Source: Natrialba sp. SSL1
GTDB lineage: Archaea; Halobacteriota; Halobacteria; Halobacteriales; Natrialbaceae
Reading direction: 5' to 3'
DNA: 64,000 nucleotides
NCBI RefSeq assembly: GCF_001861355.1
Contig: NZ_MASN01000035.1
Span: 1-64,000, forward strand
Position 1 is the first letter of the stretch. Every line of letters starts with the position of its first letter. The notes below the pieces were generated by a model that saw only the letters and a program-made list of their open reading frames with translations, searched no databases and was not told the origin of the DNA. The translations under genes were made by a program, and so were the position numbers. Positions 25,545-28,058 of this stretch are shown here, piece by piece.

Positions 25545-25676
25545 ATGGCTGTCGGCCAGCGATCGACCGTCCAGTCGCCCGCCAGCAGATTCGTCCCGAT
25601 TCTCCTGGCGAACCTGCTTCCAGTTGTCGGCATCGTCTGGTTCGACTGGCGCGCCAGCGAGGTAGTGGTGATCTAC
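25545..25676 (+). pseudogene. N-terminal fragment of a DUF6498-like membrane protein
   Basis: 44 codons from the ATG at 25545 (MAVGQRSTVQ..., then RFVPILLANLLPVVGIVWFDW and ASEVVVIY). The hydrophobic N-terminus matches what I recall of haloarchaeal DUF6498 proteins, where the next residues are typically W-L-E. Here the frame runs into mobile-element sequence after Tyr44. The W-L-E-V-V-V continuation appears 1.7 kb away at 27387, in the frame expected if the intervening DNA is removed. Confidence 0.7.
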
Positions 25677-25707
25677 CTTTCTACAGCGAGAGAGTCCCGC
25701 AGTTCAT

Positions 25708-25763
25708 GGCGTTGACGAGACGCAAAGCGTCTCGTTCACACATCAGAACGCGAAGCGTTCTGA
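25708..25763. repeat. paired palindromes at the left end of the TnpB element
   Basis: GGCGTTG, then a 9-bp hairpin (25715-25735, arms ACGAGACGC/GCGTCTCGT, AAA loop), a 7-nt spacer TCACACA, then a second 9-bp hairpin (25743-25763, arms TCAGAACGC/GCGTTCTGA, GAA loop). The same order and spacing occur at 126-181. This probably acts as the transposase-recognised end, as in IS200/IS605 elements. Confidence 0.6.
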
Positions 25764-25806
25764 GAATGGGCGTGAATCGCGTAAGCTCCGGTGAGAAATT
25801 ACCGGG

Positions 25807-25953
25807 TTACTGCTGGTCTTGAGTCTCCAACGCTTCCAGACTTGCTTCTAACACCTCTGCATAGGCCTCCGAGAGATTCAGGTCGTTCGCTTCTGCGTAG
25901 TCTTTAATTCGTCCGTGGATCGCCCAGTCAATGTCGATGTTCGGCCTCATCAT
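25807..25953 (-). CDS. small ribbon-helix-helix protein carried with tnpB
   Basis: 48 residues (47 if the second ATG at 25950 is used), beginning MMRPNIDIDWAI. A short strand (PNIDID), a first helix (AIHGRIKDYAEANDLN) and a second helix (LSEAYAEVLEASLEALE) match the MetJ/Arc/CopG ribbon-helix-helix layout, so a DNA-binding dimer is expected. TATAAT 25-30 nt upstream supports the start and a leaderless mRNA. It is divergent from tnpB with only 36 bp between the starts and lies inside the element boundaries, so it travels with tnpB. Likely role: repressor of itself and tnpB. This is inference; an antitoxin-like or accessory role is possible. Confidence 0.65.
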   Translation of the reverse strand: MMRPNIDIDWAIHGRIKDYAEANDLNLSEAYAEVLEASLEALETQDQQ

Positions 25954-25957
25954 TGGA

Positions 25958-25983
25958 CTTATTAGACATTGGGACCCATTATA
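25958..25983. promoter_or_regulatory. overlapping divergent promoters with central palindrome
   Basis: CTTATTA (25958-25964) is 26-32 nt before the tnpB ATG; ATTATA (25978-25983, minus strand TATAAT) is 25-30 nt before the RHH start. Between them lies the palindrome TGGGACCCA (25970-25978). Each promoter's TATA box covers the other's transcription start, so only one can fire at a time. Confidence 0.5.
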
Positions 25984-25989
25984 CTTTAG

Positions 25990-27330
25990 ATGAAGCGTAC
26001 CAACACATTCACCGTGCGACCGCTCTCTGATAATGGAGAGCAACTGCTACGGGACCTGTTGGACGCTTCCGCCGCTCTCTGGAACGAAGTCAACTATCAG
26101 CGCCTCATGCGGTACAACGACGAAGATGGCTTCGAGGACGAGGACGTGTGGGACGCTGATACCGGCCGACTCGAGGGTAAGTACAAAGGTATCGTCGGCG
26201 CGTCGACCGCCCAACAGGTGATTCGGAAGAACTCAGAAGCGTGGCGCGGGTTTTTCGAGCTCAAAGAAGCGTATCACGTCCCTGAAAACCAGTCAGTGAC
26301 AGAACACCCGGAGCCGACGGGGTTCTGGGGAAACCAGGACGACGGGCGCAAACTCCACACCGTCATTCGCAACACGTCGTACACCGTCGAATGGGGCGAC
26401 CGCTCCCGATTGGAGGTACTTGTTGGGAGCGAGTTGAAAGAGCGATACAACCACACTGGACGACTCCGGCTCGAGATCGCTGGCGAACCGAACTGGCCCG
26501 ACTACGAGAAGCAGGGCCGGTTAGACCTGTGGTACGACGAGACAGACAGCACCTTCCGAGCTTCGCAGCCTGTGACTGTTTCTTCAGACGAGCAGGCAAC
26601 TCCACTGGCCGATGAAACGGCCGCTCTGGATATCGGTGCCAACAATCTCGTCGCCTGTACCACGACGTCCGGAGAGCAATACCTCTACGAAGGCCGAGAG
26701 TTGTTCCAGCGGTTCCGTGAGACGACACGCGAGATCGGCCGGTTACAGTCGAAACTTGAGGATGGTCGGTACAGTAGCGAGCGCATCCGGCGACTGTACC
26801 GGAGACGGACTCGTCGACGCGACCACGCACAAGAGGCACTGTGTCGTGACCTGCTGGAACGACTGTACGCCGAAGGCGTTGATACCGTGTACATCGGTGG
26901 CCTGACTGACATCCTCGAGACCCACTGGTTAGTCGAGACGAACGCCAAGACTCACAACTTCTGGGCGTTCAAGCAATTCACCGAACGGCTGGCGTGTACC
27001 GCTGAGGAGTACGGTATCTCGGTCGAGGTCCGGTCGGAAGTGTGGACCAGTCAGGAGTGCCCACAGTGCAGTTCGACAGACCGAACAACACGGCATCAGG
27101 ACACACTGATCTGCCCGTGTGGATTCGAGGGGCACGCCGACCTCACAGCCTCAGAAACGTTCCTGAAGCGGCACGCGAACAACGCAGTCAGGCCGATGGC
27201 ACGGCCCGTGCGGTTCCAGTGGGACGACCACGAATGGTCGGAGTCACCACGCTCTCACCGTCCCAACGAACAGCGCACAGACCCGAGTACCGCTGGCAAC
27301 GGCGGGAATATTGCTTCCGGCGAGTCTTAG
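25990..27330 (+). CDS. tnpB: TnpB RNA-guided nuclease with a rearranged RuvC site
   Basis: 446 residues. The N-terminal WED/REC-like part starts [21 protein letters not shown]. RuvC-I is ALDIGANN with D214. At RuvC-II, where the motif is normally E-D/N-L, this protein has YIGGLTD (G303, G304). A conserved-looking Glu lies 46-47 residues later (E350 in [13 protein letters not shown]). RuvC-III is GHADLTASE with D384. A zinc finger CPQC...CPCG lies between. Loss of the canonical Glu with a replacement about 45 residues away is the pattern described for Fanzor proteins and some TnpBs, so it is probably active, not dead. The Asp/Ser-rich tail ends at TAA/TAG sequence that should form the 3' end of the guide RNA. 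Confidence 0.88.
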
Positions 27331-27386
27331 ACCGACTGAGGCTCCCATGGAGGAAACCGTACCGTTCACGGCGCGGAGGATGTCAT

Positions 27387-28058
27387 TGGCTCGAGGTCGT
27401 CGTCATGCTGCTGGTATACGGCGTCGCAGCACTGTTTGCTCGTCAATGAATAATCCTGGAACACCGGCGTCTCTTCCTCCCTGGCGTCAGTGAGGGAACG
27501 GAACTGTGTGAGTCGAAGTGGAGCGACGATCCTGCCACGATTCAGTTGCGTGATCGACTCCCGCCAATCTATCTACGAAATGTAAGGATTGTCGCTCTAT
27601 CGCTTATCTGGGGGCTTAGCTTTCTTCTCCTGCCAGTTGTCGTATTTGGATTGCATACCACCGTGATGTCGAAGGTATCGCCCTCACTACTCGCCGTTAC
27701 TGTCGCGATCATCGGCTCACATCTTCTCGAACTTCGCCGCAACTACTTCGGAACAAACCAGTACGAGGAACTGTCTTCACACATGGTACTCGAGATCTCC
27801 TGTCGAATCATCATCTTCGCGATTGGCTTTTTCTCGCTGCTCACCCTGGTCGGGTGGATTCTCTTTTTCCTGACACTGAATCTCCTGCGTGAATTCACCG
27901 GTGTTGTGCCGGCGACGGACACGACCGACCTGTACGTTGTGTTGCTCGTCGTGTTCGGAAAACTCGTCGTCGAGTGGTCGCAGTTTCAGGCAGCACTCAC
28001 AGACGATCCGAGCGGCTTCTCGAGTTGGTTCGTGCCGTTCGACCCGCGAGAGTTGTGA
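27387..28058 (+). pseudogene. C-terminal part of the split DUF6498-like membrane protein
   Basis: The frame from 27387 reads WLEVVVMLLVYGVAALFARQ, a transmembrane helix that continues the N-terminal fragment exactly after Tyr44. A TGA stop follows at 27447, and the same frame reopens and runs to 28058 (open from ATG 27546: MRDRLPPIYLRNVRIVALSLIWG, then SHLLELRRNYFGTNQYEEL and FLTLNLLREFTG with two or three membrane helices, ending WFVPFDPREL). A neighbouring frame between 27440 and 27490 (NNPGTPASLPPW) looks like the missing linker, so two compensating frameshifts or further decay after insertion are likely. Confidence 0.65.

Follow-up and report, generated by a model that had tools for sequence, protein, structure and literature searches.

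The window analysed here is a 64,000-nucleotide stretch of the haloarchaeon Natrialba sp. SSL1 (positions 1-64,000 of the forward strand of contig NZ_MASN01000035.1, assembly GCF_001861355.1). It contains an IS200/IS605-like element of the IS1341 type, in which tnpB stands back to back with a small gene encoding a ribbon-helix-helix (RHH)-like protein, whose family we call RHH1. The features of the locus, with the evidence used to place each of them, are the following.

25677-27386, plus strand: whole IS200/IS605-like (IS1341-type) element, without tnpA (empty site in genome G438, copies with common ends).
25677-25806, no strand: left end, ACAGCGAGAGAGTCCCGC...GGGCGTGAATCGCG (comparison with copies L038, L041 and L046).
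25807-25953, minus strand: RHH1, RHH-like small gene of 47-48 residues (open reading frame, relatives, selection, structural model).
25955-25975, no strand: candidate operator, GAC repeats at 25956, 25965 and 25973 (GACTTATTAGAC / GACATTGGGAC) around the tnpB TATA-like box (motif count).
About 25958-25965, plus strand: TATA-like box of tnpB, CTTATTAG, 25-32 bp upstream of the tnpB ATG (sequence).
25970-25978, no strand: palindrome TGGGACCCA, not conserved (copy comparison, shuffled sequences).
About 25978-25985, minus strand: TATA-like box of RHH1, AGTATAAT, 25-32 bp upstream of the RHH1 ATG (sequence).
25990-27330, plus strand: tnpB, 446 residues, OrfB_IS605 and Cas12f1-like TNB (open reading frame, family matches, alignments).
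27241-27386, plus strand: probable guide-RNA (omega RNA) scaffold, from the 3' end of tnpB up to the right end (sub-threshold match to the Rfam family HgcC).

The limits of the element were set by a genome of the same genus (G438) in which the site is empty (...GATCTAC/TGGCTCG...). Position 25676 is there joined to 27387 with no gain or loss, so the element spans 25677-27386, i.e. 1,710 bp. Independent insertions in other genomes have identical ends in unrelated flanks, and agree from the left end to the right end at ...GGAGGATGTCAT. The left flank is CTAC, resembling a target or target-adjacent motif, and CTAC or CTAT lies beside other copies. Insertion is thus clean, without target duplication and next to a fixed short target, as in IS200/IS605 elements of the IS1341 type, whose tnpB-only composition the element shares: its only genes are the small RHH-like gene and tnpB. 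A first-pass annotation, made from the sequence, had placed a gene of 47-48 residues inside the element, transcribed away from tnpB, and had seen in it an RHH-like protein in the slot of tnpA. The empty site and the minus-strand frame bear out the first point, while the lack of tnpA and a two-helix model resembling CopG and Arc agree with the second.

The RHH1 frame begins with an ATG at 25953 or with a conserved methionine (MRP) at 25950 and stops at 25807, which gives 48 or 47 residues. The start codons of RHH1 and tnpB are 36 bp apart (39 bp counted from the conserved start). Relatives of RHH1 are present in 62 of the 195 genomes of the order (Halobacteriales) that we surveyed, and RHH1 is divergent from tnpB in 48 of the 150 TnpB relatives listed. 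The start-to-start distance in these 48 pairs is 37-54 bp, except for three at 267-268 bp (L045, L046 and L047). In these three, RHH1 and tnpB are separated by a small zinc-finger-like gene with Cys pairs, for which no Pfam match above cut-off was found; in L047 the stop codon of this gene and the start codon of RHH1 overlap in the sequence ATGA. Outside the order, RHH1 gave two weak matches only. A viral origin was considered and rejected: RHH1 has no match among phage records and was seen on two viral contigs only, in one of them near a divergent tnpB-like match.

In all 702 pairwise comparisons of RHH1 genes, the ratio of nonsynonymous to synonymous differences (pN/pS) is below 1, with a median of 0.30. 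The corresponding ratio of substitution rates (dN/dS) against the window copy is 0.06-0.35 wherever computable, and the differences by codon position (7819, 3602 and 14296 for positions one, two and three) are dominated by the third. The 48 divergent pairs, the uniformly low pN/pS and the excess of third-position changes mean that RHH1 is not a chance open reading frame; it is a real gene under strong purifying selection. The first-pass annotation had staked its reading on conservation beside related tnpB genes and on purifying selection, and both are found. The small frame is unannotated or 'hypothetical' in many genome records, which could suggest a non-functional passenger or a misread frame. 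This reading is refuted by the selection test, and runs against the third-position bias and the repeated association of two small-gene families with tnpB (see below); we give it almost no weight.

Structure prediction, also proposed in the first-pass annotation, returned an RHH-like protein. In the AlphaFold2 model of the RHH1 monomer, residues 1-6 are extended and followed by helices at 7-21 and 26-45 (mean predicted local distance difference test score 81). This is the strand followed by two helices within about 45 residues expected of the RHH superfamily, in which the strand itself forms only in the dimer. The Foldseek matches of the model are mostly RHH proteins (CopG, Arc, MazE, CdbA, MatP, SvtR), all with E > 1, and such weak values are expected for a protein of only 47 residues. 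No Pfam or NCBIfam family matched RHH1 above cut-off, the best being a FitA-like RHH (E = 0.16, for a relative), and no significant match was found among PDB sequences. Hence, since no known RHH sequence family matched significantly, we class RHH1 as RHH-like by its fold and residue pattern only.

The partner gene encodes a guided TnpB by family (NCBIfam guided_TnpB, 145.5 bits for a cut-off of 100), with a zinc ribbon and the RuvC Asp residues, of which D214 and D384 are invariant. The catalytic Glu of RuvC-II is not at its usual place: the Glu of Cas12f 'MEDLTNI' aligns to an invariant Gly303. Rearranged TnpBs with a relocated catalytic Glu exist, and the invariant Glu350 near the zinc ribbon may act as a substitute, which leaves the predicted nuclease activity uncertain. 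If TnpB does not cut DNA, the RHH protein would regulate a guided DNA-binding protein instead. At the other end of the gene, the sub-threshold HgcC match (best E = 0.003, window 27241-27399) recurs in the same place in five of the six other elements tested (L050:6206-6381, L054:3039-3136, L043:5589-5668, L044:5647-5746 and L038:4937-5040), and HgcC may be related to an archaeal family of TnpB guide RNAs. In Halobacterium, the guide RNA at the 3' end of tnpB has been reported to arise by processing of a longer transcript (PMC8303175). Because of these longer precursors, control of the promoter could reach both TnpB and its guide RNA.

The overlap of the two promoters, with start codons 36 bp apart, had been noted at first pass and stands, because each TATA-like box lies about 25-32 bp before its own start. 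This spacing fits leaderless transcripts, which make up 72% of protein-coding transcripts in Haloferax volcanii (PMC4983044). The same annotation had pointed to TGGGACCCA as the operator. The palindrome indeed lies at 25970-25978. Only two of the six closest copies have it, however (the window and L010), the others having TGGGACTAA or TGGGACTGA, and shuffled sequences do equally well (p ~0.5). We therefore ruled it out as an operator. A GAC-N5/6-G[AT]C motif was found in eight of ten promoter representatives, 22-42 bp (mostly 34-37) upstream of tnpB, with a post hoc combined p = 4e-4. This is suggestive of the GAC-N5/6-GAC pair as a better operator candidate than TGGGACCCA. In the three elements with an intervening zinc-finger gene, a GACTTATTTGAC site remains at the tnpB promoter. 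Several promoter types have inverted repeats above the level of shuffled sequences (ACACATAAA-N7-TTTATGTGT, AGTCTATGG-N4-CCATAGACT, AACCTACG-N6-CGTAGGTT and CAAAAGACATTT-N14-AAATGTCTGTTG). The combined p over all promoter types is 0.001, and the repeats differ in sequence between types.

TnpBs of the same superclade that lack RHH1 are often accompanied by a second small divergent gene, RHH2, at 54-57 bp from tnpB. Its consensus is MVxIRIEFDDDEQYERLKELKxxRGLTWKGLLLEGEK and its predicted model is likewise RHH-like. Homology between RHH1 and RHH2 was undetectable in sequence (hhalign probability 17%), and when the regions preceding the RHH1-negative TnpBs were searched with a profile, no diverged RHH1 was found. 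Divergent TnpBs, some of them very distant, flank 116 of the 130 RHH2 loci; six of the other 14 lie less than 120 bp from a contig edge and have almost no upstream sequence. Among 60 sampled RHH1-negative TnpBs, 26 have RHH2, 15 are immediately preceded by a co-directional tnpA, and 19 have neither. The region between the left end and tnpB is short in 14 of these 19, and several retain an apparent 3' end of RHH1, so the RHH gene has probably been deleted there. None of the 60 has both tnpA and an RHH gene. Among the RHH1 loci L037-L056 and the 130 RHH2 loci, likewise, no tnpA turned up. The transposase and the RHH gene are mutually exclusive in the sampled loci.

The upstream cassettes have been exchanged repeatedly among haloarchaeal TnpB elements. 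A quick tree of 88 TnpBs shows about 18-20 changes of upstream label, and its well supported branches require at least seven for RHH1. For example, L026 (RHH1) falls within an RHH2 clade, and L028 (RHH1) stands beside a tnpA element. L026 is 83% identical to an RHH2 relative (L208) over a stretch that begins one base ahead of the tnpB ATG, and does not align with it further upstream, where it resembles RHH1 elements. The break falls exactly at the tnpB start codon, which implies that promoter and regulator moved together. These swaps bear on another possibility, namely that the RHH protein is mere cargo of the element, encoded next to tnpB but acting on a host gene or on a transposase provided in trans. 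The element lacks tnpA and five Y1 transposase genes lie elsewhere in the host genome; there are also RHH1 domains that are not adjacent to tnpB, in some cases fused to an unknown domain of about 330 residues. We nevertheless judge this improbable, given the near-constant spacing, the shared promoter and the swapping of promoter-RHH blocks up to the tnpB start codon.

From these observations, RHH1 is likely to be an autorepressor that the element itself encodes: acting at the divergent promoter common to both genes, it would limit TnpB in elements that lack tnpA. The transposon-borne protein would dimerise, and the dimer would bind the repeated GAC half-sites in the overlapping promoters. When bound, it would block its own promoter as well as that of tnpB, forming a negative-feedback switch. 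TnpB, and possibly the omega RNA too, would as a consequence be held low in elements without a transposase of their own. The target would then be tnpB rather than a gene elsewhere. The comparative evidence, i.e. the overlapping promoters, the candidate operators at the TATA-like box, the swaps ending at the tnpB start and the existence of RHH2, favours repression of TnpB. Several points weigh against this autorepressor model. Most promoter types tested, including that of the window, lack a significant inverted repeat. The test of the GAC motif was post hoc, and the motif overlaps a TATA region whose conservation may have other causes. The evidence for an operator is thus moderate. Besides, 15 of the 42 TnpBs in the class of at least 79% identity lack RHH1 and their tnpB is still mostly intact, showing that the RHH partner is not essential for the survival of the element.

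The survival of elements without an RHH gene also bears on the main rival explanation, in which the RHH protein acts on TnpB by direct binding, as an antitoxin would, with or without repressing the promoter, within an addiction-type retention module. Type II antitoxins often have an RHH fold, MazE, VapB and TacA-type RHH chains are among the Foldseek matches, TnpB is a potentially harmful nuclease, and the two genes move as a pair. However, antitoxin genes are usually co-directional with their toxin, whereas the RHH gene and tnpB are divergent in nearly all cases. The one exception is a co-directional, operon-like RHH1-like frame directly upstream of tnpB (L106:2439-3781). Furthermore, a protein of 47 residues is little more than the RHH domain and lacks the C-terminal tail with which antitoxins of this kind typically bind the toxin. 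Hence, neither the co-directional operon nor the toxin-binding tail of type II toxin-antitoxin systems is seen here. Finally, RHH1 and RHH2, which have no detectable similarity, pair with similar TnpBs, and this fits control at the DNA better than a conserved protein interface. We regard an antitoxin-like role as unlikely.

A broader reading, which we put forward tentatively and hold less firmly than autorepression, is that haloarchaeal TnpB elements exist in two interchangeable states: with tnpA, or without it and then governed by a dedicated RHH protein, the families of which, at least two in number, were recruited independently. Promoter, operator and regulator would be swapped as one cassette. 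In its strongest form, the RHH protein would also act on TnpB, making the element an RNA-guided addiction module.

The expansion of IS1341-type elements in haloarchaea is already known (PMC3119063). The element described here resembles them: it is inserted cleanly beside a short conserved sequence, has subterminal palindromes, and carries tnpB and, at its right end, a probable omega RNA. What sets it apart is that the tnpA slot is taken by an RHH-like gene, dedicated and divergent, of which we found no description. IS605 elements with divergent tnpA and tnpB likewise have a left-end gene pointing away from tnpB, but that gene encodes a Y1 transposase and not a 47-residue RHH-like protein; in the related haloarchaeal elements that have tnpA, it is co-directional with tnpB and overlaps or abuts it. 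RHH repressors are common, and RHH1 is similar to those of the CopG/Arc/MetJ type in its size, its predicted extended N-terminus and two helices, and its position at overlapping promoters. Unlike them, it has no Pfam or NCBIfam match and is paired with an RNA-guided nuclease within a transposon. TldR proteins, which are nuclease-dead TnpB-like repressors, also link TnpB to the control of transcription, and the TnpB of the window lacks the canonical RuvC-II Glu. In contrast to TldR, it belongs to mobile multi-locus elements, keeps the RuvC Asp residues and has a separate protein as its putative regulator. No RHH or CopG partner of TnpB was found in the literature searched, whose coverage is incomplete, so that an earlier description may exist. 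The pairing recurs across many haloarchaeal TnpB elements, with a native example on pNG300 of Haloarcula marismortui, and seems to be previously undescribed.

Cas12 descends from TnpB, one of the most common proteins of archaea, and we know of no explanation for how TnpB activity is restrained in elements lacking tnpA. A dedicated regulator recurring in many TnpB lineages would be a directly testable answer, and may help account for the tolerance of haloarchaea to dozens of TnpB copies.

Some minor observations concern relatives of RHH1 and the copies in the host genome. Four loci (L097, L099, L100 and L101) encode an RHH1-like N-terminal domain followed by an unknown protein of about 300-340 residues, and none of them adjoins a tnpB; no Pfam match was found for the fusion protein of L100. 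The genome of the window contains two other copies of the element (L038 and L039), one with RHH1 and a tnpB interrupted by an in-frame TGA, the other with an intact tnpB and no RHH gene. The left end of the window copy is broken by a 56-bp hairpin insert at 25712-25767. About 55 bp of this insert and its edge recur at three other sites of the genome with 82-87% identity; within the window the sequence is seen at positions 126-180 as well.
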